50,849 bases of DNA, taken from positions 1 to 50,849 of the forward strand of contig JANQJR010000031.1 in NCBI GenBank assembly GCA_028281525.1. Direction: 5' to 3'. Positions 19,744 to 35,909 of this stretch are shown here, in pieces. The DNA comes from Magnetovibrio sp. (GTDB lineage Bacteria > Pseudomonadota > Alphaproteobacteria > Rhodospirillales > Magnetovibrionaceae). The position numbers and the translations under genes were made by a program. The first letter of the stretch is position 1, and each line of letters begins with the position of its first letter. The notes beneath the pieces are model-generated. The model saw only the letters and a program-made list of their open reading frames with translations, was not told the origin of the DNA and made no database searches.

Positions 19744-20328
19744 CTACCTCACCAAATAGATCAAGGGGAAAATCAGCACCCACACCAGATCGACCATGTG
19801 CCAAAACGCTGCACCGGTTTCCAGGTTTTCCAAGCTGTTCTTCCAGGTCACGACGCCCAGGATAATCAATCCCAAAATGACATGCAGGAAATGAAAGCCG
19901 GTGATCAGGTAATACAGGGTGAAGAAGGTGTTGGTTTCGATATCCAATCCGGCGTCAAGCTTATCGGCGTACTCGATGATCTTGACGTAAAGAAACACCG
20001 CACCCACGGCCATGGAAGCCGCCATCCAGCGGCGCGAACCGGACATTTCGCCATCCGCGCGGGCGCGCACGGCCATGGCGGCGAGAAAGCCGCTGGTCAG
20101 CAACACCATGGTGTTGAGCGCGCCCAGAAAGCGGTCGAGATGCGCCTGGGACGCATCGAAGCCCGCCGGGTCCAACAGCCGTGCCACGGCAAAGCCACCC
20201 AGCGCCGCGCCGAAGACCAGCAGTTCACTCCAGATCAGCACCCACATGATGGGATTGCCCGGAAGCGTGGACAACGGCCCCCAGCCACCGGGGGCTTGTT
20301 TCACTTGCGGCATCGATGATGCGTCCAT
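19744..20328 (-). CDS. norE: NorE, cytochrome c oxidase subunit III-like protein
   Basis: A 194-residue membrane protein with five hydrophobic helices and the subunit III hallmarks WVLIWSELLVFGA, TMVLLTSGFLAA and GFHFLHVILGLIILGVV, followed by AAFWHMVDLVWVLIFPLIYLVR. NorE is homologous to heme-copper oxidase subunit III but acts as an accessory for NO reductase. It starts 1 bp after the norD stop, so translation is likely coupled. Its position between norD and norF makes oxidase subunit III less likely, and no oxidase subunit I or II gene is in the window. Confidence 0.9.
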   Translation of the reverse strand: MDASSMPQVKQAPGGWGPLSTLPGNPIMWVLIWSELLVFGAALGGFAVARLLDPAGFDASQAHLDRFLGALNTMVLLTSGFLAAMAVRARADGEMSGSRRWMAASMAVGAVFLYVKIIEYADKLDAGLDIETNTFFTLYYLITGFHFLHVILGLIILGVVTWKNSLENLETGAAFWHMVDLVWVLIFPLIYLVR

Positions 20329-20329
20329 G

Positions 20330-22282
20330 TCAGCTCACCAGATGCCGGTAGATGTTGGGCAAAGCACCGCTGAGGCGCTCGATATGCGGAATGATGGCGC
20401 AGCCGCCGCGCCCGAACATATAAGGGAAGTAATCCCGCGCTTCCGCATCCACCGTGACGCCAAACACCGCCGCGCCGGATTTGCGCGCTTCGCGGATCGC
20501 CATGCGGCTGTCCTCGATGCCGTAACGTCCGTCGTAATGATCCAGGTCGTTGGGCTTGCCGTCGCTGATCAACAGCAGCAACCGGTGGCGGTTGGGCCGT
20601 TCATTGAGTTGCTCGGTGGCATAGCGGATCGCCGCGCCCATACGCGTGTAATACCCCGGCTTCAACGCCGCGATGCGCCGGTCCACCATCGGGGACAGGT
20701 TTTCATCGAAGCCTTTGACCCGGTTGACCTGCACCATCGTGCGTTTGCGCGACGTGAAGGTATAGATGGCGTGGTCGTCGCCGCTGGCCGCCAGACCATG
20801 GGTCAGGGTGGTCAGCGCTTCTTTTTCCACATCCAGGACGCGTCGGCCTTGCATCCACGCATCGGTGGACAACGACACATCCACCAAAATCAAAGCCGCC
20901 AAGTCACGGCTTTCGTTGCGGAACGAAGTGTAGATGCGATCGCTCCCATCCCCGCTAGCCGCCAGATCACAACGGGACCGGATCAAGGCATCGATGTCCA
21001 GTTCGCGTCCGTCGAATTCACGGGGAATGCGTTCGCGCTTGGGGCGTAGTGCCTCAAACTGACGGCGCACCTTGCGAATGCGCTTAAGGCCGGCCTCATC
21101 GGGTTTCCAGTCCTCACCCTCTTCCTCGGCCAGGCCGGGGAACACCGCGCAATGATCCTGGTGATAATCTTTGCGCCGGTAGTCCCATTCAGGATAAAGG
21201 CATTTAGCTGACAGGCGCGTGGTGTCCACCAGTTCGGACGGCAAATCCAAATCCAAGCGGATGTTTTTGGCCGTCTTTTTGTCGGTTCTGGACAAAGTGA
21301 TCCGGTCCAGGTCTTCCGCCGCACGCATCGGGTCGTCGTCTTCATCGTCGTCGGTGGGACGGTTGACGTTGACCATTTCCGCCAACGACAAAATGTGTTC
21401 AAAACGGTTGAAGGCCAACGGATCGTCGCGGTCCGCCTGATCGTTATCACGCCGTTCGGCTTCAAACTTGCGCCCGTCCCGGAAATCTTCGGTATTTTGT
21501 TCGTCGTGGTCGTCTTGATTGTCGTCATCTTCATCATCGTTTTTAGGCGCGTCGACATAGATACGCTCCACCACATCGCCCCAAAGCGGGACGTGCAGGA
21601 ACGGCCGATACCCGGCGCTCGCCTTGAGAGCCGCAATGTCGCCATGGCCTTCGTTGACAAACGCCCACATAACCTCGTTTTTCGGCTGCGCGCCCCCCAG
21701 CAGGGCCAGCACCACGTCTTCCACATCCTGCTCCTGGGCTTGCCTTTGATATCTTGGACGGACTATGCGAATACCGTCCGCCAAGCGTTTGGACATGTCA
21801 TACAGCCCCGGCAAGCGGGCAAGCGTTTCACGAGTGAAATAGGTATATGCGCGTAACGCCACCAAATCCCGTTGCAAAGGATCACCGGGCAATACGCTCG
21901 CCGGTATGGGCTGGGCCACCGCCATATAGGCGGCAAGCCAAAGATACATTTGGCGGTTGAGCACCGGGTCGTCGAACAGGTCGATGACGTTGGGCAGGAT
22001 CAGGGATTCATCGTCGCGCCTGGCGCTTTCCAGTTTCTCGCGCGCCACGCCCAGTTTCATCTTGAGGCTCAAACGGTGACCTTTTTCCTGGGCTACCGCG
22101 CCTGCGATATCCAGGGCGAAATCACCGCCGACACCGTGAAAAAAGACCGAAAGCGTGGTACGCATCTCATCCAAACGCACGGCGGCGTCGGGATAGTGGG
22201 GATAGCTGCTTTGTCCGCCGATCAAGCGGTCCCAGATCTTTCCCACCAGTTCTTCAGGCTCAAATAACAGAGCTAGGCTCAT
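20330..22282 (-). CDS. norD: NorD, von Willebrand factor A-domain protein for NO reductase activation
   Basis: A 650-residue cytoplasmic protein with a C-terminal VWA domain (about residues 460-650). The MIDAS-type DVSLSTDAW motif is clear, followed by LLLLISDGKPNDLDHYDG. A strongly acidic central region (DDEDDDNQDDHDEQN) precedes it. NorD works with the MoxR-type ATPase NorQ to insert the non-heme iron or otherwise mature NorB. It starts 12 bp after norQ. It is homologous to CbbO, but the nor context, the length and the missing link to cbbLS support NorD. Confidence 0.92.
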   Translation of the reverse strand: MSLALLFEPEELVGKIWDRLIGGQSSYPHYPDAAVRLDEMRTTLSVFFHGVGGDFALDIAGAVAQEKGHRLSLKMKLGVAREKLESARRDDESLILPNVIDLFDDPVLNRQMYLWLAAYMAVAQPIPASVLPGDPLQRDLVALRAYTYFTRETLARLPGLYDMSKRLADGIRIVRPRYQRQAQEQDVEDVVLALLGGAQPKNEVMWAFVNEGHGDIAALKASAGYRPFLHVPLWGDVVERIYVDAPKNDDEDDDNQDDHDEQNTEDFRDGRKFEAERRDNDQADRDDPLAFNRFEHILSLAEMVNVNRPTDDDEDDDPMRAAEDLDRITLSRTDKKTAKNIRLDLDLPSELVDTTRLSAKCLYPEWDYRRKDYHQDHCAVFPGLAEEEGEDWKPDEAGLKRIRKVRRQFEALRPKRERIPREFDGRELDIDALIRSRCDLAASGDGSDRIYTSFRNESRDLAALILVDVSLSTDAWMQGRRVLDVEKEALTTLTHGLAASGDDHAIYTFTSRKRTMVQVNRVKGFDENLSPMVDRRIAALKPGYYTRMGAAIRYATEQLNERPNRHRLLLLISDGKPNDLDHYDGRYGIEDSRMAIREARKSGAAVFGVTVDAEARDYFPYMFGRGGCAIIPHIERLSGALPNIYRHLVS

Positions 22283-22294
22283 GACTCACGTCCC

Positions 22295-23086
22295 TCAGCC
22301 AAACGTGGCGCGGACCACTTCTTCCAAGCCGGCCTTGACGTCGTCGTCGTCGCTCAAGGGCTCGATCAGCGCCGCACGGGTGGCATCCAGCGCCGTCATG
22401 CCGGAGCGCATCAACGTCGCGCAATAGACCAACAAGCGAGTCGATGCACCTTCTTCTAAGTCCTGGTCGGTCATGGCGCGAATGCGGCCCGCCAGATTGA
22501 CCAGGGGCGTGCAGCGTTCGGTTTCCAGACCGGACTCTTGGGAGACGATCATGATTTCCGCATCCGGGGCGGGATAGTCGAAACTGATGCCGACGAAGCG
22601 CTGGCGGGTGCTGGGTTTCAGGCTTTTGAGGATGTTCTGGTAACCGGGATTATACGACACGATCAGCATGAAATCGTCCGGCGCGGCCAGAGTTTCGCCA
22701 GTGCGCTCCAGCGGCAGAATACGCCGGTCGTCGGTCAAGGGGTGCAGCACCACGGTAACATCCTTGCGCGCCTCCACCACTTCGTCCAGATAACACACGC
22801 CGCCCGCGCGCACCGCATGGGTCAACGGCCCGTCCTCCCACGTCGTTTCACCGCCCTTGAGGAGATATCGCCCGGTCAGGTCGGCGGCGGTCAGGTCGTC
22901 GTGACAGGATACGGTGTGCAATTCCAGCCCCAGCCGTGCCGCCATGTGCGCGACAAAGCGGGTCTTGCCGCACCCGGTCGGCCCTTTCAACAAGAGAGGC
23001 AGGTTATTTTTGTGGGCGTGTTCGAACAACTCGCACTCACCCGCGACGGGCAAGTAAAAGGGGATTTCGGATCGGGAGGCTTCCAT
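22295..23086 (-). CDS. norQ: NorQ, MoxR-family AAA+ ATPase
   Basis: A 263-residue AAA+ ATPase. Walker A is GPTGCGKT (residues 35-42), Walker B is GVCYLDEVVEA, sensor 1 is in FMLIVSYNPGYQN, and the arginine-type region follows in PSTRQRFVGI. It uses ATP with NorD to activate NorB. Its family also includes CbbQ, but its neighbours are norB and norD. It begins 106 bp after norB, and this gap contains a terminator-like hairpin, so NorQ/NorD may be made in smaller amounts than NorCB. Confidence 0.93.
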   Translation of the reverse strand: MEASRSEIPFYLPVAGECELFEHAHKNNLPLLLKGPTGCGKTRFVAHMAARLGLELHTVSCHDDLTAADLTGRYLLKGGETTWEDGPLTHAVRAGGVCYLDEVVEARKDVTVVLHPLTDDRRILPLERTGETLAAPDDFMLIVSYNPGYQNILKSLKPSTRQRFVGISFDYPAPDAEIMIVSQESGLETERCTPLVNLAGRIRAMTDQDLEEGASTRLLVYCATLMRSGMTALDATRAALIEPLSDDDDVKAGLEEVVRATFG

Positions 23087-23122
23087 GACGCCAATTCTCT
23101 ATTATTGGTTCTGAGAAAGAAA

Positions 23123-23159
23123 GGGGGGCTAAATCCATCTCATGATGGATAAAGCCCCC
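23123..23159 (-). terminator. Stem-loop attenuator between norB and norQ
   Basis: The region reads GGGGGCT, AAATCCAT, a CTCATG loop, then ATGGAT and AAGCCCCC. This forms a long stem of about 14 bp with one small internal mismatch. On the - strand it is followed by a T-rich CTTTCTTTCTC tract. It looks like a rho-independent terminator with partial read-through, since norQ-norD-norE-norF lie beyond it without an obvious separate promoter. Confidence 0.75.
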
Positions 23160-23192
23160 AGTTTGTCATCAGCTTAGTCTAGTGGGATATCA

Positions 23193-24539
23193 TTATTCCG
23201 CCGCCTGGGGACTTGTTTCCCCAGCCTGCGCTTGTTCCTTGTCCGTGCTGAGCATGGCATAGACGTATATCAACACCCCGACGACAACCACGATCCCGGA
23301 CAACAGCCGCAGGATGAAGAAGAAGTTGATCTCGTCGGCGACCTCCATGAAGCCGATGCCCATGACGCGCTGCAGATGGGTCTGCAGCACACCGGCGGCG
23401 GTCAAGACGAAGGTCATGAAGGCCATGCCGGAGCACATGATCCAGAAGCTCCACATATTGAGCACCTGGTTATACGGCTGCATGCCCCTGAGATGCGGCA
23501 TGGCGTAGGTGATGATCGCCAGATTGACCATCACGTAAGCACCGAAGAACGCCAAGTGACCGTGAGCCGGGGTGATTTGCGTGCCGTGGGTCAGGTAGTT
23601 GATCGGCGCCAAAGTGTGCAGGAAGCCCCACACGCCGGCCCCGAAGAACGCCATCACAGCGCAGCCCATCGTCCACAACAATGCGGCTTGGTTGGGGTGA
23701 TTACGCCCGCCCTTGCGCACGATCATGAACGTGAACACCACGATGGCCAAGAACGGCAACACTTCCAAGGTGGAGAAGATCGAACCGATCCACTGCCAAT
23801 AGCCGGGCGTACCGATCCAGTAGTAGTGGTGACCGGTGCCGAGCAAACCGGTGAACAACGTCAGCGAAACGATGACATAGAGCCATTTTTCCACCACTTC
23901 GCGGTCGATGCCGGTCATCTTGATCAGCAGGAACGAAAGGATCGCCGCCATGATCAGCTCCCAAACACCTTCGACCCACAGATGCACCACGTACCACCAG
24001 AACATTTTGTCCAGCGCCAAGTTGGTGGGGTTGTAGAAAGCGAACAGGAAGAACAGCGCCAAACCCCACATCCCGATGGTGAGGATCAGGGAAACGGCCG
24101 TCTTGCGGCCCTTTATCAACGTCATGGTGATGTTATAGAGGAACATCAACGCAACGATGACGATGGCGACCTTGATGATCAAGGGCTGTTCCAGGAATTC
24201 ACGGCCTTCGTGAATTCCGAACAAATAGCCGACCACGGCCGCGGCCGCGCCGATCAAAAACAGCCAGAATTGCAGCTTGGCGATGCCCGGGCTGTGAATT
24301 TCGGTCTCGGCCTCTTCCGGGATTAGGTAGTAGGCCGCACCGAAAAAGCCGAACAGCAACCACACGATCAGCGCATTGGTGTGGATCATGCGGATAATGT
24401 GGAAGGGAATGGTTTCCGACAACAGATTGGGGAACACGTAAACCGTGCCCGCGAGAAGGCCACCCAAAACCTGCGCCACGAACAAGCCCATGGCGGCCAG
24501 GAAATACGGATAAGCCAGTTTTTGCGTTTCATATTTCAT
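23193..24539 (-). CDS. norB: Nitric oxide reductase large subunit NorB (cNor)
   Basis: A 448-residue, 12-helix membrane protein that reduces NO to N2O. The metal ligands can be placed: H53 and H328 for heme b, H326 for heme b3, H186, H237 and H238 for the non-heme iron, and E190 in HLWVEGVWE as the extra FeB ligand. Spacing from H186 onward equals that of characterised cNorB enzymes. It lacks the N-terminal extension of quinol-type qNor. It follows norC by 27 bp with an AAGGAGAC Shine-Dalgarno. Confidence 0.97.
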   Translation of the reverse strand: MKYETQKLAYPYFLAAMGLFVAQVLGGLLAGTVYVFPNLLSETIPFHIIRMIHTNALIVWLLFGFFGAAYYLIPEEAETEIHSPGIAKLQFWLFLIGAAAAVVGYLFGIHEGREFLEQPLIIKVAIVIVALMFLYNITMTLIKGRKTAVSLILTIGMWGLALFFLFAFYNPTNLALDKMFWWYVVHLWVEGVWELIMAAILSFLLIKMTGIDREVVEKWLYVIVSLTLFTGLLGTGHHYYWIGTPGYWQWIGSIFSTLEVLPFLAIVVFTFMIVRKGGRNHPNQAALLWTMGCAVMAFFGAGVWGFLHTLAPINYLTHGTQITPAHGHLAFFGAYVMVNLAIITYAMPHLRGMQPYNQVLNMWSFWIMCSGMAFMTFVLTAAGVLQTHLQRVMGIGFMEVADEINFFFILRLLSGIVVVVGVLIYVYAMLSTDKEQAQAGETSPQAAE

Positions 24540-24566
24540 GATTGGAGTCTCCTTGGTTCCGGCTTA

Positions 24567-25019
24567 TCAGCCCGCCTCATTCGGCGGCCAGTCCTGGGTC
24601 TTGATGGTGTTCACCCACCGGAAGAAATCGACCAGTGCGTCGAGTTCTTCGTCGCTGAGCTTGAAGTCCGGCATCTGACGCCGGCCTTCGATCCCGGTGG
24701 GCTGGTTCTTGATCCAGTGCTTGATGCCGTCGCGCGCGGCCTCGGCGTCTTCGAAGCCGCCATAGCGCGCCCATACGTTGCCGAGTTCAGGGGCGTAGTA
24801 CGCGCCTTCGCCCAACAAGGTATGGCAATTGATGCACGAATTGCGCTCCCACACGGCCTTGCCGTGGGCCACGCCCGGCGTGATGCCGGCGACATCCGTA
24901 GAATTCTTTGTGATGTAGCTGACGCTGTGCGCCGTCAAGGCGACCAAAACAATTAGAAAAAACAGCGTACCGCCAAAAAAGATGTTTCTGGCGGTCGACT
25001 TGGTGAGACCTTCAGACAT
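24567..25019 (-). CDS. norC: Nitric oxide reductase cytochrome c subunit NorC
   Basis: A 150-residue membrane-anchored cytochrome c. One N-terminal helix (NIFFGGTLFFLIVLVALTAHSV) holds the periplasmic domain. The heme c site is C62-x-x-C65-H66 (SCINCHTLLGEGAYYAPEL), and the distal methionine is in RRQMPDFKLSDEE near residue 117. It passes electrons from periplasmic donors to NorB. It is the first gene of the nor operon; a perfect FNR-type site lies 90 bp upstream. Confidence 0.96.
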   Translation of the reverse strand: MSEGLTKSTARNIFFGGTLFFLIVLVALTAHSVSYITKNSTDVAGITPGVAHGKAVWERNSCINCHTLLGEGAYYAPELGNVWARYGGFEDAEAARDGIKHWIKNQPTGIEGRRQMPDFKLSDEELDALVDFFRWVNTIKTQDWPPNEAG

Positions 25020-25122: not shown

Positions 25123-25228
25123 GTCGGTCTCGTGAAATTTTTTAGCTGACGATCGCCTCCCCCACGTGCCGCGGTGTGATAATCTCTTCCCGGCAAAGCT
25201 GGCGCTTAAGATTAAAGACAAGGTATTC

Positions 25229-25582
25229 ATGAACGCTGCCCCCTCCCCGCCCGTCGACTTGGACCAACTGTCGCGCAACACCGGCACAAAAGACCGAGAT
25301 GTCCTGTTGTCGTTCGTCGATCTTTTTTTGGAAGAGTTCCCGAAGCTTATCGCCGAGTTGGAGGCCGCCATTGCCGCGCGCGATCCGATGCGCACACACA
25401 CCGCAGCCCATACCGCCAAGGGCGCAGCGGCCAACGGAGCGGCCCCCGAATTGAGGGACGTGTTGTCGGGACTGCAACTCAACGCCCAACACGAGGACTG
25501 GGCATGGATGGAAGACGAATTGCAAAAAGTCAAAACCGCGCATGAGCGCATTGCCGCTTTCCGGCGAGACTTGAAGCCTTAG
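25229..25582 (+). CDS. Histidine phosphotransfer (HPt) domain protein
   Basis: A 117-residue single HPt domain. The phosphorylatable histidine lies in AHTAKGAAANG, the canonical H-x-x-K-G motif (residue about 57), within a four-helix bundle (VLLSFVDLFLEEFPKLIAELEAAI and MRTHTAA helices). It relays phosphate between receiver domains. The ATG at 25229, after AAGG, is chosen because the earlier frame start lacks a Shine-Dalgarno. It is divergent from norC and convergent with the OmpR-type regulator, so it is a candidate relay partner of the large hybrid kinase. Confidence 0.85.
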   Translation: MNAAPSPPVDLDQLSRNTGTKDRDVLLSFVDLFLEEFPKLIAELEAAIAARDPMRTHTAAHTAKGAAANGAAPELRDVLSGLQLNAQHEDWAWMEDELQKVKTAHERIAAFRRDLKP

Positions 25583-25606: not shown

Positions 25607-26293
25607 TTAATCGCGCACGGTCTCCCAGGCGCATTTATACCCAACCAGAGGCACAGTTTCGATCAGTCCTTTGTCGATCTTCTTGCGCAGACGGCTGACC
25701 AAAATATCCACCGCGCGAAACGACAGCGGCCCATCACCGGACGAAATCGCGTCCACCAAGTCTTCGCGCGACAACACCTTACCGTCCGAAGTGGCGAGCA
25801 CCCATAGCATGGAAAACTCCGCAGGCGTGAGATCGACTGCGTCACCGTATTCGTTGATCACCGTATGACGCGCATGATCGAGTTCCAGGGAACCGAGCTT
25901 GACCCGCTGCCCCGCCCCACTCTCACCCGTTGCGCGGCGAATCACGGCTTGAATGCGCATATCCAGCTCGCGGGGATCGACGGGTTTGACCACGTAATCG
26001 TCCGCGCCCAGCTCGAAACACGCCATTTTGTCTTCAATCTGCTGGCGGCCCGTCATGACGATGATCGGCACCTGGGAACGCGCACGCATCTTGCGCACCA
26101 ACACAATACCGTCTTCATCCGGCAGCGTGAGATCGATCACCAGACAATCGAACGTTTCGCTGTCGGCCTTTTTGAACAGGTCCGCGCCGGTGGCAACGGT
26201 TCCTGCGTCATAACCGTTTTTGTCGAGATACTTGACCATCACGCCCGCAAGCGCGATGTCGTCTTCGACAATGAGAACTTTAGCGTTGCTCAA
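25607..26293 (-). CDS. OmpR-family response regulator
   Basis: A 228-residue response regulator. The receiver domain (residues 1-120) has the acidic pair in VEDD, the phospho-acceptor Asp in CLVIDLTLPDEDG, the Thr in IIVMTGR and the Lys in DDYVVKPVDPREL. The C-terminal winged-helix domain (about 135-225; TPAEFSMLWVLATSDGKVLSRE, VDILVSRLRKKI) binds DNA. It lies 71 bp after the large hybrid kinase, in the same direction, and is its likely output. No target is known; the adjacent operon is one candidate. Confidence 0.92.
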   Translation of the reverse strand: MSNAKVLIVEDDIALAGVMVKYLDKNGYDAGTVATGADLFKKADSETFDCLVIDLTLPDEDGIVLVRKMRARSQVPIIVMTGRQQIEDKMACFELGADDYVVKPVDPRELDMRIQAVIRRATGESGAGQRVKLGSLELDHARHTVINEYGDAVDLTPAEFSMLWVLATSDGKVLSREDLVDAISSGDGPLSFRAVDILVSRLRKKIDKGLIETVPLVGYKCAWETVRD

Positions 26294-26364
26294 AGCGGCC
26301 CCCTATTCGCCCAAATGCCCCATGGAATTCAAGGTACAACAGCTCCCGGAATTCTCAAATCACC

Positions 26365-29300
26365 TTATGGCGCGACTCCGTTTGGTATGATCAACCGGAC
26401 CTGGGCGGTCTCATCCGAACCCTGGCCGAATTCCAACCGACCGCCCATCAATCCGGCCAACCGTTCGACGATGCGATAGCGCAGGCCCGCCATGCCGTCT
26501 TGACCGTCCGTTTGCCAGATGCGGGCATAGGGGCCGTACACTCGGACGATGTCGTCCTCGCTAAGACCCGATCCCGGGTGGGTGGTGGTGAAGACCGCCG
26601 TATTTTCGGACGTGTTGAGTTGTAGCGACACGGTATCGTCACCTGCGCTGTCCGTCACGGCATTGCCCATCATATGAGTCAGCATGGTCGTCAACGCGGC
26701 GCGGTCGGCATCAAGCTTAAGCGCGGGTTGTGCGCAATCGACGTTCAGCGCAACGCCCCTTGAGCGCGCCAGCGGTGCCAATGACCGCGCCACGGATACG
26801 GCCAACTGCTTGGCATCTAGGGTCTCCGGCGACGGGCTAAAGTCTCCGGCTTCGATTTGCATCAAAGTCAACATATCCGCGGCCATGTCCTCCATGTGCG
26901 CACTGTGGGATTGAATGGACTTGGCATATTCGGCCAAATCGTCGAGCGTATCGCTGTCTTCGGAGTAATCCTGCAACATCCGCGCGCACCCCAGCACGGT
27001 GTTCATGTTGTTGCGGATGTCGTGCGCCATCTTCGCGAGGAACAAGGTGAGCGCCTCTTCATCCCCGTCATCTTGAGAAATGACCACTTCGCCGGGCTCC
27101 AAGGCTTGCACGGCTTCGTCCATCAACACCGGGAATTGCGCGCCCAAGATCCGAGCCTGATCCAGACGGTTTTCCTTGCACGCCAGTTCCGTCGCACGGG
27201 CATGTTCCGACAATCGCGCCAACCCCAAGGTCGCGGCATTGGTTTTGAGGTCGTGGGCAAAGCGCGTCATCGGCTCAACATCGTTTTCTTCACCAGCCAG
27301 TGTGAAGGAACGCACGCAGTCCGCGCCAATGGTTTTGAAATCCGCAATCAATTCCGTCAGGACCTCATCGCCGAAGTCGTTTTGCAGGCGGCTCATCACG
27401 TCCTTGTCCAAGACCGGCGGCAAGTCTTCCCCAACCGGCGCACGCGCCCCGGGCAGGTTCAAGGCACCCGCTTCACCGCTCAAAGTGGCGTTGTCCGTGA
27501 CAAAACGCGCCAGTGTGGCGGTCAGTTCGTCCGGATCGATAGGTTTGGAAACCACCGCGTTCATGCCAACTTCCAGACACGTTTCAATTTCGCGCTGGGT
27601 TACCGCCGCCGTCACCGCAATGATGGGCACGGAGCCCACTGGATCCGCCATCTGGCGGATAAACCGGGTGGCCTCGATACCATCCATCACCGGCATATGA
27701 CGGTCCATGAGAATAGCGTCGAAGGGATCGCCGTCTTCGATACACGTCAGCGCTTCGCGGCCATTTTCCGCCAGAGTAACGTGGTGGCCCAGGTTCTCCA
27801 CCAAGCTTTTCGCGACTTTGGAGTTAATCAGATTGTCTTCAACGATGAGCACCCTAAGCCCCGGCAGGCCAGTCTTGTCACCGCCATCAGACGGTAAGGG
27901 CAAGGTTTCGAACACCTGGTCTTCCGCGATTTGGGCGATTTCGAACGGCGCCTCGAAAGAGAAGGTGCTGCCTTCGCCCAGCCTGCTTTGCAGGTGCATG
28001 CTGCCGCCCATCAGTTCGGCCAAGTGGCGGCAGATGGACAAGCCCAAACCGGTACCGCCGTATTTTCGCGCCACGCCCGCAGCCTGGACGTACGGAGCAA
28101 ACAGATTCTTCGCCGCATCCTCCGATATACCGAGCCCACTATCGGCCACCGCCATCTCCAGCCAGAACACGCCGTACTCGTCGCGCTGACCTTTCAGGGT
28201 CACGACGATTTCACCGCGGTCGGTGAATTTCATGGCGTTGCTCAACAAATTGAGCAAGATCTGGCGCAAGCGGTCACCGTCTCCCAACAGAAGTTCGGGC
28301 ATGTCGCTATCAATTTCATAAGACAGCGCCAAATTCTTTTCCTTGGCCTTAGGCGCCATAATATTGACGGCGTTCTTGATCACTTCGTCTGGGTCGAACG
28401 GGATGATTTCAAGTTCCAGCTTGCCGGCTTCAAGCTTGGAAATATCCAGCAGGTCGTTGAGGATACTGAGCAGCGCTTCGCCGGAATCGACGATGGTGCG
28501 CGCCAATTCCTTTTGCTTCGCGGACAACGGCGTCTCCAAGATCAGGCGCGCCATACCCAACACGCCGTTCATGGGCGTGCGCACTTCGTGACTCACCACA
28601 GCGACAAAATCGGATTTGGCCTGGGCGGCTTCTTCGCGGGCGCGCATCTCTTGTTCCAGGCGCCGGTTGCGCACAAAGATCGCGCCGACGATCAGCAAGA
28701 TAACCACCACCGCGCCACCGCCGACCTGCAAGCCAACGCGCATCAGCGCCTTGGGGTCGGTGGCCACGTCAAAACGCACGGACACCCAGCGTTCATTGAT
28801 GGCGTTTTCTTCTTCGGGCGTGACCGATGCCAGAACCTTTTCCATAATACCGATCAATTCCGGCCAATCCTTGCGCACACCAAAGGATAGTCCGGGAATG
28901 TCGATGTCCGCCGTCGCCGCGACCTTCAAATTGCTGATGTTGTTTTGGCGAATCAGATACGTGTCCACCGCCAGGTTGCCTACCGTTGCAGCGACCTTAC
29001 CGGTCGCCACGGCTTCCAACGCCTGCAAAGGAGTGGTGTATTCCCGATACACCAGATTGGGGTAAAGGGATTTGAGTTTTTCCGCAACGGAATAGCCTTC
29101 GACCACGGCCACGACTTGATCCGTAAGGTCCTTCAACCCCGTGACAAATGGAAAATCATCACGGGTGATGATGACCGTGGGGTGACTGAGATAAGGACGG
29201 GTGAAGTTCATGTAGACTTCGCGTTCCGGCGATTTCGCCGCCGCAGGCAAAACATCCACGCTTTTGCGCTCAACCCCGCTCAACGCTTGCGACCAGGTCA

Positions 29301-31713
29301 AGCCCGGCACCAGTTTAAACTCAATTCCCAATCGTTCGCTCGCCAGTTTGGTGTATTCCGCCGCGATGCCGGCATAGGCGCCGTCATCGGTAACAAACTC
29401 AAAAGGCGGATAATCGGGATCCACGCCGATCAAAATGACCGGGTGGTCCTGAAGCCAGGCTTTTTCCTCATCCGTCAACTTGATCTGCGGGATGGTTTTC
29501 GTTTGACTGCGTTCCTCGCCCAACCATTTGCGTTTCAGTTCACGTACGCTTTCTTGCCTCATGGAGCGCACGGCCTTGTCTATGGCCGTCGCCAACAACG
29601 GTGTATCCTTACGCGTCGCAATATTGAGCAGGGAATATTCCGGGCTGCCCAATTTCACTTCACCGGACAACACCAGATCGGTCATGAAGTGCTTATCCAG
29701 CAGATAGTTGAATACGGCGAATTCACCGAGCGCCGCGTCGGCTTGGCCGAACGCCACCGCCTTCATGGTTCCCAGGGTATCGGTCACAAGGTGCAAGTTG
29801 ATCTGCGGAAAGTCACGCTTGAGGATTTCTTCGTAAAAGAAGCCCTTGGGCACGGAAATGGTTTTTCCGTAAAGCTCTTCCAAACTGGAATAGGGCTGGT
29901 CCTTGCGGCTCAGAATCGTATTGGGGTTATCCACATACGGACGGGTGTAATCCATGTACGTCAAGCGATCCGGCGTGCGCACGATGTTGAGCATGACGTC
30001 CAGTTCATCCGCCTTCATCATCCCCAGGAACTCGTTCCAACTCGGCCCGGAAATGAATTCGACCTTCAAGCCCAACTTGTCGGCGATGGCGCGCATGTAG
30101 TCGATGGAAAATCCCTTGGCTTCACCGTCTTCATTGAAGTTGAACGGCGGCCAGTCCAGTTCGTTATGCACGCGAATGACGGGATTGTCGGCCAACCATT
30201 GGCGCTCATCCGTTGTCAATCCCAGTGGATTGGTATTGAAATATCGGCTTTCCGGGAACACCACCCAGCGTCGCTCAATTTCCGCGAATTCTTCGTGGGA
30301 GATCGTATCCAGACCCGCTTCGATAACGGCCTTCAGTCCGGCTTCGCCCTTGCGGATACCGAACATCATTTCGCTTTTGATCACGGCCCTGGTGGTTTTT
30401 GCCACACGCCCGCCCAATCCCAACTGGCGCAGCAAGTCTTCGATGGTCCGGTCCTGGCTGAGAAACCCGTCCAGCCTCCCATCGATGAGGGCGCGGATCA
30501 GCTGTTCGCGCTCTTCGTGGGATATCAGCCGCGCGCCGGGGTGCGCCTTAAGCATGTATGTCTGTTCGTTCGATCCTTTGATCACCCCGATGGATTTGCC
30601 GGTCAAATCGTCCGGCAACGTTTCGCCCGCGCGGTGATAAAAGCTGCTGGTGATTTCATAGATGGGGCGGCTGAATTCAACCCAACTGTCGCGTTCGTCA
30701 TTGCGCAACAAACCGGAATGAATATCCACTTCACCGCTGCCCAGGTTGTTCAAGGTGTCCGCCCAACTGCTTTGGCGGAATTCGATTTTATGTCCAGTTT
30801 TTTCCGCCCACAGACGCCAAATATCGACCAGCATGCCGACCGGTTGGCCGTTGGCGTTGATGGTCGAAAACGGTGGGTAATTGCGCGCGATGGCAATGAC
30901 CAGGGTGTCCGATTCCGCCTCTTGCTTGGGCCGCAACCAACGGCGGATGATATCGACGCGCTCTTGTGGAGTGATTTGGGAGAGCCCCACCCTAACCTTG
31001 TCCATCAAGGCCGTATCGCCTTTCGTCACGGCAGCGAACAGGGCATTGGAATCCAACGGCCTGGATGCATCGAACCGGAACGCGCGTTCCAACCCCCGTT
31101 GCTTGAGAAAGTAGAGCCCCGTCTGCTCAACGTCGGCGAACAGACGCACCCGGTTCTCGGCTATGGCGTCGTAAAGATCGTCGATAGCCTCATACGGCAA
31201 CAATTCGACACCGGGCACGCGCTTTTCCAGGATCGCTTCTTCCAAACTGCCTTTAAGAACGCCAATTCGAAATCCGGTCAGTTGATCGAGATCACCGGAC
31301 AGCTGCATGCCCGCCGGAGAAAACACATAAGAGTTGGTGTTCAACAGCGCATCCGCGTAATCGAGAAAGGCTTCACGTTCCACCGTCCGGTTGAGACCGG
31401 CATGGATGTCGGCCTCCCCGACCTGCATCATTTCCAGCGTTTCGCTCCACGGCGCGGGCTTGAACTGGACCAGGGTTCCGGTTTTTTCCGACCACAGTTT
31501 CCAAAAATCAGCGATCAGGCCATCGGGCTCGCCTCGTTCATTGACGAATTCGAACGGGCGGAAATCCTGGCCAATGGCGATGCGCACGGGTTCCGTCGCC
31601 ACAGCGGCAGAAGTCAGCGCAAAAAACGCCAACGCAGCAAAAAACAGGCCTGTCAGAAAAAGGCGGCAAGCTTGCTTACGTAATGCCGGCATGAAGGTAT
31701 CCCCGTCCGCCAT
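26365..31713 (-). CDS. Very large hybrid histidine kinase with four periplasmic solute-binding domains
   Basis: A 1782-residue sensor. A signal peptide (about residues 8-40) leads to four tandem SBP_bac_3-type domains starting near 42, 269, 508 and 754, each opening with a YPPF- or RPFEF-type motif. One TM helix (about 990-1012) follows. Then come HisKA with VVSHEVRTPMNG (His near 1039), HATPase (N-box LLNLLSNAMKF near 1151), a receiver (LRVLIVEDN near 1286, Asp in AILMDRHMPVMDG) and an HPt (AHDLKTNAATLG near 1485). The last 250 residues form a second kinase-like module (MAHDIRNNMNTVLG near 1560) whose ATP-binding half is eroded (HPGSG in place of DxGxG). The ATG at 31713, after TGAGGA, leaves a 10-bp gap from the exported-protein gene. 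BvgS-like sensors share the multi-SBP design but usually carry two. Confidence 0.93.
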   Translation of the reverse strand: MADGDTFMPALRKQACRLFLTGLFFAALAFFALTSAAVATEPVRIAIGQDFRPFEFVNERGEPDGLIADFWKLWSEKTGTLVQFKPAPWSETLEMMQVGEADIHAGLNRTVEREAFLDYADALLNTNSYVFSPAGMQLSGDLDQLTGFRIGVLKGSLEEAILEKRVPGVELLPYEAIDDLYDAIAENRVRLFADVEQTGLYFLKQRGLERAFRFDASRPLDSNALFAAVTKGDTALMDKVRVGLSQITPQERVDIIRRWLRPKQEAESDTLVIAIARNYPPFSTINANGQPVGMLVDIWRLWAEKTGHKIEFRQSSWADTLNNLGSGEVDIHSGLLRNDERDSWVEFSRPIYEITSSFYHRAGETLPDDLTGKSIGVIKGSNEQTYMLKAHPGARLISHEEREQLIRALIDGRLDGFLSQDRTIEDLLRQLGLGGRVAKTTRAVIKSEMMFGIRKGEAGLKAVIEAGLDTISHEEFAEIERRWVVFPESRYFNTNPLGLTTDERQWLADNPVIRVHNELDWPPFNFNEDGEAKGFSIDYMRAIADKLGLKVEFISGPSWNEFLGMMKADELDVMLNIVRTPDRLTYMDYTRPYVDNPNTILSRKDQPYSSLEELYGKTISVPKGFFYEEILKRDFPQINLHLVTDTLGTMKAVAFGQADAALGEFAVFNYLLDKHFMTDLVLSGEVKLGSPEYSLLNIATRKDTPLLATAIDKAVRSMRQESVRELKRKWLGEERSQTKTIPQIKLTDEEKAWLQDHPVILIGVDPDYPPFEFVTDDGAYAGIAAEYTKLASERLGIEFKLVPGLTWSQALSGVERKSVDVLPAAAKSPEREVYMNFTRPYLSHPTVIITRDDFPFVTGLKDLTDQVVAVVEGYSVAEKLKSLYPNLVYREYTTPLQALEAVATGKVAATVGNLAVDTYLIRQNNISNLKVAATADIDIPGLSFGVRKDWPELIGIMEKVLASVTPEEENAINERWVSVRFDVATDPKALMRVGLQVGGGAVVVILLIVGAIFVRNRRLEQEMRAREEAAQAKSDFVAVVSHEVRTPMNGVLGMARLILETPLSAKQKELARTIVDSGEALLSILNDLLDISKLEAGKLELEIIPFDPDEVIKNAVNIMAPKAKEKNLALSYEIDSDMPELLLGDGDRLRQILLNLLSNAMKFTDRGEIVVTLKGQRDEYGVFWLEMAVADSGLGISEDAAKNLFAPYVQAAGVARKYGGTGLGLSICRHLAELMGGSMHLQSRLGEGSTFSFEAPFEIAQIAEDQVFETLPLPSDGGDKTGLPGLRVLIVEDNLINSKVAKSLVENLGHHVTLAENGREALTCIEDGDPFDAILMDRHMPVMDGIEATRFIRQMADPVGSVPIIAVTAAVTQREIETCLEVGMNAVVSKPIDPDELTATLARFVTDNATLSGEAGALNLPGARAPVGEDLPPVLDKDVMSRLQNDFGDEVLTELIADFKTIGADCVRSFTLAGEENDVEPMTRFAHDLKTNAATLGLARLSEHARATELACKENRLDQARILGAQFPVLMDEAVQALEPGEVVISQDDGDEEALTLFLAKMAHDIRNNMNTVLGCARMLQDYSEDSDTLDDLAEYAKSIQSHSAHMEDMAADMLTLMQIEAGDFSPSPETLDAKQLAVSVARSLAPLARSRGVALNVDCAQPALKLDADRAALTTMLTHMMGNAVTDSAGDDTVSLQLNTSENTAVFTTTHPGSGLSEDDIVRVYGPYARIWQTDGQDGMAGLRYRIVERLAGLMGGRLEFGQGSDETAQVRLIIPNGVAP

Positions 31714-31723
31714 GACGATTTCC

Positions 31724-32233
31724 TCAGGCCCCGCCAAAACAAGTGCTTGTCAACTGGCGTACCGCGCGCATCTTTTTCTTATGATTTTTAAACTGAAGCG
31801 TGCCGATGGCCAGCCGGTCGACGACATACGCGGTTTCTTTGTCGGTAAATTCGAAATGTTCAACCTCACGCAAGCGCAATTGCACGTCCCACGTTCCACC
31901 TGGAAAGCTCACGCCATAAAGACCGATGTCCAATTCGTCGCCGAAATCCACATCCATCTCCACGCCGTCATTGGTTAGGCTCAGGCAGGCTATGAACTCA
32001 TAGACCGGCATCATCCGGCCTTTAGGTTCGTTGGTGGCAAAAACATATGAGTTCGGCACTTTATGAAAACGCATGTCCTGCAAGACGGGGGACATCTTGA
32101 TGAAGCGCTTCACTTTGCTCTTCATTTCCGGGGCAACGTCCCAAGACGTTTTTGCTGCAAGCGCATCGGGAGCGCCGAATAGGGAACAGGCCACCAACAC
32201 GGCTAAAGCGGGTTTGGCGTACGGCTTGGCCAT
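31724..32233 (-). CDS. Small exported protein of unknown function
   Basis: A 169-residue protein with a clear signal peptide (about residues 1-26, ALAVLVACSLFGAPDALAA) and a periplasmic mature part rich in charged residues. Two cysteines remain in the mature protein (FIACLSLTND and TSTCFGGA) and could form a disulfide. Segments such as WDVAPEMKSKVKRFIKMSPVLQDM and HFEFTDKETAYVVDRLAIGTL are distinctive, but I do not recognise the family. It lies 18 bp after the secretin gene and 10 bp before the large kinase gene, so it is co-transcribed with both. A chaperone- or ligand-type partner of either is possible but unproven. Confidence 0.8.
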   Translation of the reverse strand: MAKPYAKPALAVLVACSLFGAPDALAAKTSWDVAPEMKSKVKRFIKMSPVLQDMRFHKVPNSYVFATNEPKGRMMPVYEFIACLSLTNDGVEMDVDFGDELDIGLYGVSFPGGTWDVQLRLREVEHFEFTDKETAYVVDRLAIGTLQFKNHKKKMRAVRQLTSTCFGGA

Positions 32234-32251
32234 TTCCCTCTGCCCTCTAGC

Positions 32252-34162
32252 CTAGAAATACAAGAACTGGATGGCGCGGATCGTCATACGTTCCAAACGG
32301 CCCGGATAGTGCCACTTTTCCATGCGCACGTCGCCGGATCGGAATTCCTTGAAGAACCGGCCGTCCTTCAAATGCCAGAACACCGCATCCAGGTTCGGCG
32401 CGGGTTTGCGCCAGACCGCGCTGTTCTTCAGCTCTTCCAGATTCTTCTGTTCCATACTTCCATCGCTTGGGTTTTGCAGGTCGACTTTGGTGCTGCCATC
32501 TTCGTGCGTATAACGCGGTTTGCGCGGCGTAACCAGGATCAGTACGGACCTGGTATACGTCAGCGTGTTTTCCGAACCGAAGAGGTATTGGATCACCGGC
32601 AAATCCTGCAACAGCGGCACGCCGTCACGCAGGTTTTCGTCTTCCTTCTCACTCAAACCGCTGAGCACCAAGGTGTCACCGAACTTCATGCTGACATTGG
32701 CGGTAACCGTATTTTTGGTGGTCTGGGCGAAGTTGTTGAAGCCGGCGTTGGAAGACCGCCCTTCGATGAAGGCGCGCGCGGCGGTGACGTTCAGTTCGAC
32801 CGTATCCGTGCCATGGAACGTCGGCGTCACGTCGAGCTTAACGCCAACCGGCACGGACTGCACCGCACCTTGGCTGCCGGCCGAACCCGTCAGTTCGATA
32901 TGGAACACGGCGCCGGAGAAAAACTCGGACTTCTTACCGTGCAAAGCCACCAAGGTCGGGCGCGCTAGGACTTCGTTCTTGTCGTAGTTGTCGTTGAAAA
33001 TATTCAGCGAGTACGTCGCCGAAAGCGAAAACGACGGATTGATGGTGAAGGTCTTGGCGCGCGAATTCGCCGCATGCCAATTGACGGTGCGGGTGTCCGA
33101 CAGGCTCCAAAGCGTCCCGGACAAGGTTGAAGACAGACCGCTCAACAAGTTGACGCCCTTGGACGTGGCGGTGCGCTCTTCGGAACGGATGATCACCACA
33201 TCGACCAGCGCCATGCTTTGCGCCGTGGCTTTTTGAGACGCGGACGCGGAATCGCTGCTGTCGTCGCTGTCATCGGATGAATCGTCGTCGCTATCATCAT
33301 CACTATCATCGGGTGAAATACCTTCCGATGTGTCGTCGGAACCAAAAATGTCCGACGTGCTCTGCGCCTGGTGCAGCAACGGCCCGTTTTCCATATGGAA
33401 TTGCCGCCAGTCGTCGACGCGGTTCTTCAGATGCACTTTGCGGAACGGCGACGCCACGCTGCTTGCGGCGTCGAATACGGCCAGTTGCGCCTGGGCTTCG
33501 CCCGTGCGGCCCGCAGCGGCGTTGATCATCGCCGCATCATAAGCAATGGCGGGGTTGCCCGGGTCCAGCTTCGTGGCCTTGTCGATCGCGCTCAAGGCCG
33601 TGTCCAAATCCTGGGCGTAATAGGACGCCGTCGCCAATGCGCGCAGGATGTCGGGGTTGTCTTCGTCATAAAGCAGCGCGTAGGCAAAGGCGTCCTGGGC
33701 CTCTCGGTAACGCTGTTCGGCGAAACTGATGTGCCCCAACTGGTACGCCGCCCAGAAGTTAGACGGATCGTAGCGCAACGCCAGATCGTAACCAATTTTG
33801 GCCATATCCAACTGGCTGGAATCACCTTGAGCGGCCATCAGATGATAAGTCAACGCATTGAGAAAATGCAGGTTGGGATTCGCCGGTTCAAACTTGAGCG
33901 CGCGGTTGAAGGCTTTGGAGGCCGCCTGCAAGTCCTTGTCATCCAGAGCTTCGAGCCCGGCCCTGATCCACGGGTCGTTTAGCCGGTCGCTTTTCACGTC
34001 TTTGATCATGTCCGTGAAACTGACCTGTTCGACCTGCTCCACGCTGTTCAGTGATGTGGTGGCAAACAGCTTGTCGCCCAAATTACCCGTGGTGGCGTTA
34101 CAACCTGCTAACGCCCCGGCCAAAACCAACACAGGTAAGACCTTTACGGTGCGCTGAATCAT
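32252..34162 (-). CDS. TPR-containing lipoprotein secretin (type II/III secretion superfamily)
   Basis: A 636-residue outer-membrane protein. The N-terminus is a lipoprotein signal (LVLAGALAGC, Cys21). Several TPR-type helices follow (about residues 60-230, such as DKDLQAASKAFNRALKFEPANPNLHFL). Then comes an acidic Ser/Asp-rich linker (about 278-312) and the secretin core (about 320-590). The core has VDVVIIRSEERT, PVGVKLDVTPTF, the GDTLVLSGLSEKEDE beta-signal-type stretch and VPLLQDLPVIQYLFGSE. The usual N0/N1 ring domains are missing and seem replaced by TPRs. No ATPase, inner-membrane platform or pseudopilin genes are nearby, so it is an orphan secretin in a sensory operon. MSHA/Tad-type secretins are the nearest general relatives. 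Confidence 0.85.
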   Translation of the reverse strand: MIQRTVKVLPVLVLAGALAGCNATTGNLGDKLFATTSLNSVEQVEQVSFTDMIKDVKSDRLNDPWIRAGLEALDDKDLQAASKAFNRALKFEPANPNLHFLNALTYHLMAAQGDSSQLDMAKIGYDLALRYDPSNFWAAYQLGHISFAEQRYREAQDAFAYALLYDEDNPDILRALATASYYAQDLDTALSAIDKATKLDPGNPAIAYDAAMINAAAGRTGEAQAQLAVFDAASSVASPFRKVHLKNRVDDWRQFHMENGPLLHQAQSTSDIFGSDDTSEGISPDDSDDDSDDDSSDDSDDSSDSASASQKATAQSMALVDVVIIRSEERTATSKGVNLLSGLSSTLSGTLWSLSDTRTVNWHAANSRAKTFTINPSFSLSATYSLNIFNDNYDKNEVLARPTLVALHGKKSEFFSGAVFHIELTGSAGSQGAVQSVPVGVKLDVTPTFHGTDTVELNVTAARAFIEGRSSNAGFNNFAQTTKNTVTANVSMKFGDTLVLSGLSEKEDENLRDGVPLLQDLPVIQYLFGSENTLTYTRSVLILVTPRKPRYTHEDGSTKVDLQNPSDGSMEQKNLEELKNSAVWRKPAPNLDAVFWHLKDGRFFKEFRSGDVRMEKWHYPGRLERMTIRAIQFLYF

Positions 34163-34911
34163 TGACCCTCTCCTTCACGGCACGAAATAATCGTGCTTCC
34201 AATCTCATAAGGCGCCGCCCCCGGCACTTTCCCAAAAACGATAAAAAAATCTACTCGTTTGGGCTTTTCGCTCACAAGTCGCAAATGTGACTCTTTGGTC
34301 GCTTTGCGGCGTCACACTTCCATTTTTATGACGCCCTTGCGACCAAAGGTGTCGCATTTGTGTCTTTGGCTAGTCTCCCTTACACCCCGCCTCTGGTCAA
34401 TGACCTGGGTGTTTCCAGGATGTTTCTGACCTACAGTGCCGAAAAACAGCCCCGAAGCATCTGACACCGACACATACCGATTGGTTTCAATGCCACCGTG
34501 CCAAATATCCGTATGGATCCCTTTGGGAGCCGCTCTCATGGGTCTGACGACCGGTCATGGAGCCGTAACCGTACATCGCCATGGTTTAGTCGAACAGTTG
34601 ACCCGTTGGCGAGGCTCTTTATCGAACGTACCATTGCGTTTATCGATGCTGATACACCTGTTATCACCGGAAACAAATTTCGTAGTATTTCTAGGCACCT
34701 TCACTTTTAAACACATTGGTTTTTGTTCATAAGTACATCTGGAATCAAGAAGTTAACACCGAAATTGTCGATAGACGACATGGGCAAACGCCGGCCGAGC
34801 TATAGGGGTTCTTTTGCGTCATTTGTGCTGGGCAATTGATTCTTCTTCTGTTAGGGCCTTATCGCACGCGTCAATCTTGGATAACGCTCGCGACTGTCCG
34901 AAACGCAACTT
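34163..34911. other. Non-coding region upstream of secretin operon
   Basis: A 749-bp stretch with no supported gene between the secretin and Crp-type genes, both on the - strand. It includes a long imperfect inverted repeat (34282-34360) and a 15-bp dyad, TGTCG-ATAGA-CGACA (34766-34780). GTTTCTGAC near 34424 recurs twice upstream of the Crp-type gene (near 35786-35805). Short open frames (34312-34539, 34436-34732, 34498-34710) have no recognisable protein features. It probably carries the secretin operon promoter; a regulatory RNA is possible but not shown. Confidence 0.6.
34282..34360. repeat. Long interrupted inverted repeat before secretin operon
   Basis: Three arm segments are nested. 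CAAATG (34282-34287) matches CATTTG (34355-34360), TTTGGTCGC (34294-34302) matches GCGACCAAA (34339-34347), and GGCGTCA (34308-34314) matches TGACGCC (34329-34335), around a central loop. It also has TGTGAC (34286-34291) and GTCACA (34311-34316). It could be a DNA cruciform, a regulator site or the stem of a transcript starting 120-180 bp before the secretin gene. Confidence 0.7.
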
Positions 34912-35715
34912 CTATGTCGTTTTTTGCGATTGTGCTTCGCGTTGCAACCGCTCCGGATCCAGGAAAATCAGCACTTGGCCCCGGCGTTCGATGACTTTGT
35001 CGCGCATCAGCTTGCCGAATACACGAGCCACGGTCTGACGCGTGGTGCCAACGGTGTTGGCGATTTCCTGCTGCGTTGGCACGGGAAAGACCCTTGCGCG
35101 GCTTTTGTTCGTCGGATCGCTCATCGCGCGGTTGAGCAAATCCTCGCACACCCGCTGTTCGGCCGTCAGCAGGCACAGACTTTCGATCCGATCATAAGCG
35201 CGGCGAACCTTGGCGCTGATCCCGCGCATCACATCACGCGCGGCGTACTCGTACTTTAGGACCAGGGTGACAAAATCACGCTGGGATAGGCTGCACACCT
35301 GGCATGTGGACGTGGCGACGACATCCATGGGACACGGCTCAGAGTCCAGCGCACTTAATTCGCCGAACATATCCCCGGCGCCCAGGCTTTCGAAAATCAC
35401 GTTGCGCAGTTGGGTCGATGTATTCACCGCCAGGGCTGTGCCTGAGACCAGGAAATACACCCGCCCTTCATCACTGTCATAATTATGCAGGACCGTTCCA
35501 TTGGCGTGTGTCTCGCACGTGAACGTGGTTTTCACTTGCGCTTGGACATCCTCGGGCAGGGCGCGCAACAGGACGAACGTCTCCATGGCACGCTCTGCCG
35601 GGCTGGGACCTGCTTGCGCGCGAACCGACCGGTTCGTGCTCCAATATCTTCTGTGTCTCAGTGCGTGTGCCATCGTCTGGTCTTTGCTGAACGTTTGGTT
35701 TTGGGTCGCCATCAC
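34912..35715 (-). CDS. Crp/Fnr-family transcriptional regulator
   Basis: A 267-residue regulator. After an N-terminal extension of about 45 residues comes a cyclic-nucleotide-binding-type beta-roll (about 50-165; VYFLVSGTALAV, GAGDMFGELSALD) and a C-terminal HTH (about 210-255; PTQQEIANTVGTTRQTVARVFGKLM). The recognition helix reads TRQTVAR, nearer to Crp (SRETVGR) than to Fnr (E..SR), so it need not bind the TTGAT-type site before norC. There is no N-terminal Cys cluster, so an Fe-S oxygen sensor is unlikely. The ligand is unknown. It starts 194 bp from the divergent phnM1. Confidence 0.87.
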   Translation of the reverse strand: MMATQNQTFSKDQTMAHALRHRRYWSTNRSVRAQAGPSPAERAMETFVLLRALPEDVQAQVKTTFTCETHANGTVLHNYDSDEGRVYFLVSGTALAVNTSTQLRNVIFESLGAGDMFGELSALDSEPCPMDVVATSTCQVCSLSQRDFVTLVLKYEYAARDVMRGISAKVRRAYDRIESLCLLTAEQRVCEDLLNRAMSDPTNKSRARVFPVPTQQEIANTVGTTRQTVARVFGKLMRDKVIERRGQVLIFLDPERLQREAQSQKTT

Positions 35716-35909
35716 GACGGCCGAGGTCGTATCTGCGTCTTTCTCAACTTTCCCGCCACATGCTCCTCAGTGCAATGGCCGTGGTGTTTCTGACGTGTTT
35801 CTGATCTTGCAAGTCATTGTTTCAAAATGGTAACGCAGGCGTCACAGAAGCGTATCGCAAGCACAGTATGGAAAGGGGTTTCCGACCAATTCCACCCCCG
35901 GGCACAACC

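Follow-up and report, generated by a model that had tools for sequence, protein, structure and literature searches.

What is the role of a secretin that is encoded beside a very large sensor kinase, with no gene of a secretion system or pilus next to it? This question is raised by contig JANQJR010000031.1 of Magnetovibrio sp. (assembly GCA_028281525.1), analysed over 50,849 nucleotides (positions 1 to 50,849 of the forward strand; hereafter the window). Four minus-strand genes separated by gaps of 18, 10 and 71 bp encode SEC, SML, HK and RR, named and located as follows (TPR, tetratricopeptide repeat; SBP, solute-binding protein):

32252-34162, minus strand: SEC, lipoprotein with TPRs and a secretin domain (PF00263, TPR families, alignment, tree)
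31724-32233, minus strand: SML, small exported protein belonging to no known family, with a predicted alpha+beta fold (family searches, model)
26365-31713, minus strand: HK, membrane hybrid histidine kinase with four periplasmic SBP_bac_3 domains, a receiver, an Hpt domain and a second kinase-like unit (Pfam)
25607-26293, minus strand: RR, OmpR-type response regulator with a TTG start (PF00072 and PF00486)

The preferred reading, in which we have moderate confidence, is a two-step export of proteins to the cell surface (through Sec, then through the secretin) under the control of HK and RR, with a cargo that includes giant proteins encoded elsewhere in the genome. Sec would carry very large lectin-bearing proteins into the periplasm, where the lipid-anchored TPR part of SEC would take up the giants and the secretin ring would let them pass to the cell surface, a passage that would need no type II secretion or pilus platform. 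SML would be a small periplasmic helper, produced alongside either SEC or a giant. The four-SBP kinase would sense small periplasmic solutes, SBP_bac_3 domains being of the amino-acid or nutrient type, and RR would bind a tandem GAAAC repeat and turn on the SEC-SML-HK-RR operon, together with giant genes of other contigs and, probably, a gene for a CRP/FNR-like regulator. This reading is based on the gene order in one genome (G005), the adjacency of giants to secretins of this type, the lectin domains at the ends of the giants, the signal peptides of neighbouring proteins, the absence of a platform protein in many carriers, an operator-like repeat and a leader element. A wider proposal is made tentatively: the TPR-secretins would represent a new class of secretion system, a platform-free pore exporting lectin-tagged surface proteins (giants of ~2,000 to >3,000 aa included), in which tectonin, ricin-B and DM9 domains would serve as export or anchoring tags and a nutrient-sensing kinase would set both pore and cargo by means of one operator and a leader element. 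Genomes, contigs and loci are designated below by G, C and L numbers, respectively, and the Magnetovibrio sp. genome itself is referred to as the own genome.

The operon and its secretin

The four-gene arrangement and its three gaps, proposed in a first-pass annotation of this DNA, were confirmed from the open reading frames (ORFs). The start of HK was taken at an ATG (31713), the longest ORF beginning at a TTG (31737) that overlaps SML. Since no terminator-like site among the matches listed falls within the gaps, and promoter-like matches are few (2, versus a mean of 4.5 in shuffled sequences), a single operon, also proposed in that annotation, is plausible. HK and RR, a kinase and a receiver-winged-helix regulator encoded within it, constitute a two-component system.

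SEC is a secretin, which is a known kind of protein: residues 393-547 match PF00263 with an E-value of 4.8e-29 and 101.6 bits (curated cut-off 27.5). The initial description as a TPR secretin lipoprotein lacking secretion-system partners agrees with the Pfam searches, with a lipobox (LAGC) ending at Cys21, and with the ORF list and Pfam matches of the window, in which no secretion or pilus gene adjoins SEC. The lipobox cysteine is invariant in 13/13 aligned sequences (window included) and its N-terminal position makes SEC a liposecretin; the protein also carries an acidic linker. No N0-N3 domain was matched in Pfam and NCBIfam searches, and the NCBIfam scores for known secretins remain below their cut-offs (PilQ 74 versus 284 bits, GspD 66 versus 351, SctC 44 versus 238). 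A lipobox was recognised by our own pattern in 53 of 73 full-length SEC relatives; since several of the displayed misses appear to lack lipidation, the anchor is not universal in the wider family.

Among 41 genomes, own included, close orthologues of SEC (60-75% identity) were found in G005, G022 and G032, each followed directly by SML. Relatives at ~40% identity make up a second group, which is present in more of these genomes and to which an own-genome paralogue on contig C53 belongs. Named genomes were scanned for SEC relatives; of the 94 loci obtained, 80 were kept, many of them from metagenome-assembled genomes (MAGs). They include Thalassospira, Terasakiella, Kiloniella, Magnetovibrio blakemorei, Magnetococcales, Rhodocyclales, Comamonadaceae, Glaciecola, Nitrospinaceae and Elusimicrobia. 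The records of carriers span at least 3 phyla, two of which are represented by MAGs only. In a tree of 53 secretins with hand-chosen rows, the 34 TPR-secretins (31 representatives below 60% identity, plus the window, L035 and L038) were split by a 100/100 branch from 19 other secretins of relatives, taken one per locus. As judged from this tree and the scan, SEC belongs to a separate and widespread TPR-secretin clade.

The genes around these secretins form recurrent arrangements. Thalassospira isolates carry a compact cassette made of an AraC-type regulator, an exported protein, SEC and a tectonin protein. A Rhodocyclales locus (L109:8128-14739) has the order DM9/SUEL protein, SEC, pentapeptide protein, SBP_bac_3 protein and exported protein with no assignment, and further betaproteobacterial loci resemble it in gene sizes and order.

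Absence of a pilus-type platform

T2SSF (PF00482) is the platform protein of type II secretion systems, of type IV pili and of Tad. From 46 of the 80 loci, 45 TPR-secretin carriers were identified and searched for it; in control genomes it was detected in 13 of 14. T2SSF was absent in 22/45 carriers, the engines of type III secretion systems (T3SS) and of phage type not having been searched genome-wide. Half of these 22 (11) are isolates, namely ten Thalassospira and Terasakiella brassicae. For 19 of the 22, all secretin matches are TPR-secretins (a single match in 17, two in G052 and G054, both among the surveyed loci); the remaining G050, G059 and G068 have one further secretin match each. 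In the first genome set, T2SSF was present in 10/13 carriers and missing from G001 and G032 (both <70% complete) and from G022, which is 98% complete and has SEC as its sole secretin; the two genome sets overlap, G041 being G022 and G056 being G004 as judged by coordinates. Two loci of the own genome, named by reading, resemble such machines, Tad on C22 (with two T2SSF) and T3SS on C12, and each has its own secretin. A platform protein of the GspF/PilC/TadB type is thus found there only beside another secretin, on C22, and no T3SS core gene was seen by SEC, again by reading.

Giant, lectin-type and other exported neighbours

Giant exported repeat proteins are encoded next to SEC or its paralogue in G005 (2,619 aa), in G022 (>2,000 aa) and on contig C53 of the own genome, which carries three giants alongside the SEC paralogue and second copies of SML and RR. 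Giants adjoin TPR-secretins in the named loci L064, L120 and L122 as well. The own genome has at least 5 giant genes of the family (C53, C49, C35; L038, L053, L147, L148), two of which reach contig ends. These proteins consist of beta-rich repeats N-terminally, with ricin-B domains toward the C-terminus, often together with DM9 or tectonin; a few show sub-cut-off matches only, and the L064 giant has no match to ricin-B, DM9 or tectonin at an E-value of 0.05. The lectin domain types are those of the shorter exported neighbours of other TPR-secretins. The model of the giant repeat is beta-rich (predicted local distance difference test, pLDDT, 80), with no match to a PDB structure at E <=0.001 and a single match by sequence (E 0.87). 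Weak CDtoxinA matches were seen in the giants of L142, L143 and L147; they overlap the ricin-B stretches and were read as a shared beta-trefoil lectin fold, not as a sign of a toxin.

A cargo survey was performed with 12 queries over the 80 loci. In 49/80, an exported protein of lectin type (tectonin, ricin-B, DM9) or related to the giants was found (45 when the giant query is left out, this query also picking shorter proteins of 726-1,168 aa in L070, L083, L086, L103, L104 and L136), and 72/80 have a lectin-type, giant-related or pentapeptide protein near the SEC relative. When the 31 divergent representatives are considered, 16 have a lectin-type or giant-related protein. The same queries gave no match in 22 control loci, 17 of which measure only 2-4 kb.

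The same-strand next neighbours of these 31 TPR-secretins (n = 48) include 10 tectonin, 10 pentapeptide, 4 ricin-B and 1 DM9 proteins. Signal peptides, called by our own rule, were present in 34/48 next neighbours versus 24/94 genes located 3-4 places off (p = 2e-7), and proteins both exported and of at least 500 aa were 21/48 versus 5/94 (p = 7e-8); the control set of 94 genes itself contains a pentapeptide gene (L121:12566) and a giant (L061:1-6597). The contrast for one family (10/48 versus 0/94) was not used, the control families being the best 25 of 177, with 2 members in the last, so that up to 2 tectonin or pentapeptide genes may be present among the controls. Kinases are absent from the best 25 of 52 next-neighbour families.

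SML, the kinase and the regulator across genomes

SML has no match in Pfam, NCBIfam or PHROG. It was found in 4/41 genomes (G000, G005, G022, G032), the same four that have SEC at 60% identity or more. Four of the five copies seen adjoin SEC; the other, the second copy of the own genome, follows a giant gene. The SML model (pLDDT 79) has no significant PDB match by Foldseek, and the candidate folds, a designed NTF2-like protein (best, E 7e-3) and MlaC-like proteins (0.04, TM ~0.3), were not retained; no function is therefore claimed from structure.

In HK, Pfam recognises four SBP_bac_3 (2e-100), two HisKA, two HATPase_c and one receiver domain, with Hpt just below the cut-off. The kinase half matches histidine kinases everywhere, and the SBP half was used to search for orthologues. 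Full-length four-SBP orthologues are present in G032 (65%) and G005 (45%), so that a full-length kinase at 45% or more accompanies close SEC and SML in 3/4 genomes and occurs in none other of the 41; a weaker four-SBP relative (35%) is found in G023, which has no close SEC. In G005, a second genome of the genus, the genes lie in one direction in the order HK, RR, giant, SEC, SML, adenylate cyclase. In G032 the closest kinase orthologue comes directly after the genes of an ATP-binding cassette (ABC) exporter and of an HlyD-type protein that has a cyclic-nucleotide (cNMP)-binding domain (L151:3557-7517). HK and SEC are there on separate contigs, each reaching a contig end, SEC on the matching side; an HK-RR to SEC order like that of G005 is possible. 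A link between secretin and kinase, whose co-occurrence was suggested as a check in the first-pass annotation, is thus supported in these close relatives; in the wider group no kinase is among the best 25 of 52 next-neighbour families.

Seven RR orthologues at 54% or more were found, the window's included (own C20 and C53, G005, G022, two in G009, G021), and at 62% identity they lie directly upstream of giants on C53 and in G005 and G021. A HAMP/guanylate-cyclase-type protein recurs by SML, RR or a giant in G005, G009 and G019 (L035:7134-8792, L144:7267-8940, L149:2068-3759), and genes for cNMP-binding proteins likewise recur; a contribution of cyclic nucleotides to the control is possible.

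An operator-like repeat and a leader

The pattern GAAAY-N6-GAAAY-N10-TTGA was spotted by eye in upstream sequences and then tested by search. Its two direct repeats have a period of 11 bp and stand immediately 5' of a -35-like TTGA; the layout resembles that of an OmpR-family operator, to which RR would bind. The corresponding features of the window are:

34397-34426, minus strand: GAAAC-N6-GAAAC-N10-TTGA upstream of SEC, the sole exact match in the window
35772-35801, minus strand: one-mismatch copy found by pattern search, 57 bp upstream of the CRP/FNR-like gene
34912-35715, minus strand: CRP/FNR-like regulator (cNMP_binding and HTH_Crp_2), upstream of SEC, a possible member of the same regulon in view of its one-mismatch operator copy
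34163-34370, minus strand: leader of the SEC transcript, strongly structured (RNA fold -77.2 kcal/mol, z -4.85, 0/200 shuffles as low)
34274-34292, minus strand: leader element AGTCRC-N4-GCGWCTTGT, common to the leaders of SEC, of one C53 giant (giantB) and of the C49 giant

The motif was drawn from four upstream regions (SEC operon, giantB, C49 giant, G005 giant), and four further sites were found by search, before SEC, HK and a cNMP-type gene of G005 and a cNMP-type gene of G009. In all, 8 distinct exact sites occur in 2.37 Mb (152 loci and the window, overlaps counted), for ~0.02 expected from base composition, and all precede SEC, giant, HK or cNMP-binding-type genes at 46-255 bp, a range obtained with the G009 gene start moved to the methionine aligned with the G005 homologue. 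In the window, matches with 0-1 mismatch number 2, for 0.12 expected. Other stretches of the own genome (374,954 bases) contain no exact site and 2 one-mismatch sites, one of them on C35. Nine one-mismatch sites were found, and three of them have behind them the CRP/FNR-like gene of the window, an extracytoplasmic function (ECF) sigma gene on C35 (100 bp downstream of its site) and a repetitive protein of G021. A count of words shared between the upstream regions was no better than in shuffles (5 versus 4-5). The leader element has 3 distinct occurrences in the sequence searched, all in such leaders, the pattern having been drawn from these three; the leader would contribute to the joint control. 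Through the common operator-like repeat, SEC, the giants and HK probably belong to one regulon.

The cNMP-type proteins of G005 and G009 are related (27%), the CRP/FNR-like protein of the window being more distant. A helix-turn-helix match was obtained only for the window's protein, and the G009 protein has no Pfam match. The NCBIfam matches of the CRP/FNR-like protein are weak (best 59 bits, cut-off 266).

Two further features adjoin the operon in the window. A separate Hpt-domain protein lies tail to tail with RR and is a possible, uncertain phosphorelay partner:

25166-25582, plus strand: Hpt-domain protein (PF01627, 1.9e-08)

A nor-type cluster (19744-25019) adjoins the operon on its strand; its heme-copper oxidase-type subunit I and von Willebrand-type protein were assigned by Pfam and the remainder by reading.

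Alternative explanations

Several observations weigh against regulated export of lectin-bearing giants through SEC. None of the 12 cargo queries matches in the window itself. Among the 80 loci, 23 have a pentapeptide protein only, which is not lectin-like, 3 a cysteine-rich type only, and 5 (Terasakiella L065 among them) no match to any query; the loci are moreover not independent, 15 of the 38 with tectonin coming from Thalassospira. SML, HK and RR are missing with most TPR-secretins. In G022, SEC and SML are present but a full-length orthologue of the kinase (45% or more) is missing, and the RR orthologue lies on another contig with no giant beside it. G021 has giants and no secretin at all in its genome; its RR orthologue upstream of a giant (G021:C60, L141) carries an internal stop, so the system may be decaying there. 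Six of the nine one-mismatch operator sites have no gene of interest behind them and look like chance, and several of the sampled genomes are fragmented MAGs.

In the first-pass annotation SEC was seen as an outer-membrane gate that admits or releases a ligand read by the four-SBP kinase, the operon being a sensory device. The structure of the operon agrees with this, as do the clustering of kinase and SEC in G005, their joint presence in G032 (on separate contigs) and the stand-alone SBP_bac_3 protein encoded two genes after SEC in L109. The wider SEC family, however, is associated with exported proteins of the lectin-like, giant-related and pentapeptide types, with no kinase in the best 25 of 52 families, and porins are the usual outer-membrane route for small solutes. 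This gate was rejected as the main explanation on the neighbour types and the common operator-like repeat, and appears very improbable; because of these cargo-type neighbours, of the exporter context in G032 and of the shared repeat, the kinase looks like a controller of surface-protein export, not a reader of what the pore admits. It is also improbable that SEC is the outer ring of a type II secretion system (T2SS), type IV pilus, Tad or T3SS encoded elsewhere, although its secretin domain matches best with the PilQ and GspD models and with GspD chains of the PDB, and the own genome has the Tad-like and T3SS-like loci. Membership in either of these two loci was rejected, since both come with a secretin of their own and SEC is placed in a separate clade; no N0-N3 domain was matched, and 22/45 carriers have no T2SSF (19 of them no other secretin either), with T3SS and phage-type engines outside this genome-wide search. 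An identity of SEC as a phage secretin was likewise rejected, the PHROG match to pIV spanning only the shared domain.

Secretins are exits for proteins and filaments, which argues against SEC passing a polysaccharide or lipoprotein that the lectin-like proteins merely bind in the periplasm or at the surface; no polysaccharide synthase was found among the best 25 of 52 next-neighbour families. Lectin-type domains do bind sugars, giants occur without a secretin in G021, and TPR proteins occur in exopolysaccharide export (PMC9384988, PMC9734138). We consider this explanation unlikely, though less so than the others weighed here. Another possibility is shared control only, HK and RR governing unrelated envelope genes while SEC and the giants do not cooperate. 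On several contigs the operator stands before genes for SEC, giants, HK or cNMP-type proteins, and SEC and giants are not always found together (G021; L065). Against it, SEC and a giant are adjacent in L064, where the upstream regions of both have no exact operator, and SML follows SEC and also a giant; there is little probability that the association stops at joint regulation.

Surface export through SEC under HK and RR is thus retained as the preferred reading. Judged from the genomes, the TPR-secretin family looks like a separate export route. Among the titles and abstract openings listed in searches of open papers, none describes a TPR-secretin with lectin or giant neighbours. Secretins are known as outer parts of larger machines; if the export reading is true, a secretion route is missing from textbooks, in which a TPR-secretin is the only secretin of many cultured species, with no pilus-type engine. 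The Thalassospira cassette makes this reading directly testable, and the operator predicts members of the regulon in relatives of the window.

Comparison with known systems

HK shares with EvgS-type kinases the tandem periplasmic SBP domains and the HisKA/receiver/Hpt arrangement (316 bits, cut-off 1995). HK has four SBP domains, a second kinase-like unit and an OmpR-type partner, against the two SBP domains and the LuxR-type partner of EvgS.

Filamentous-phage pIV functions without a T2SS, as is proposed for SEC, which matches PHROG 1012 (1.2e-19); SEC differs by its TPR and lipid part and by its recurrent lectin, giant and pentapeptide neighbours, and no phage gene was noticed beside it. With GspD and HxcQ-type liposecretins, SEC has in common the secretin ring, the putative two-step export of Sec substrates and a lipid anchor on the secretin, HxcQ being itself lipid-anchored. 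It differs from them by its TPRs, by the lack of matched N0-N3 domains and by the absence of a GspF-type platform in 22/45 carriers. Compared with PilQ, SEC is far below the cut-off of 284 bits, many carriers have no T2SSF/PilC, and its neighbours are cargo-like. The secretin domain of SEC nevertheless matches best with the PilQ model (74 bits), and its TPR part matches PilF of the PDB (2ho1, 4.4e-7), one of the TPR lipoproteins (PilF/PilW/Tgl) that accompany PilQ; SEC thus resembles a TPR lipoprotein fused to a secretin.

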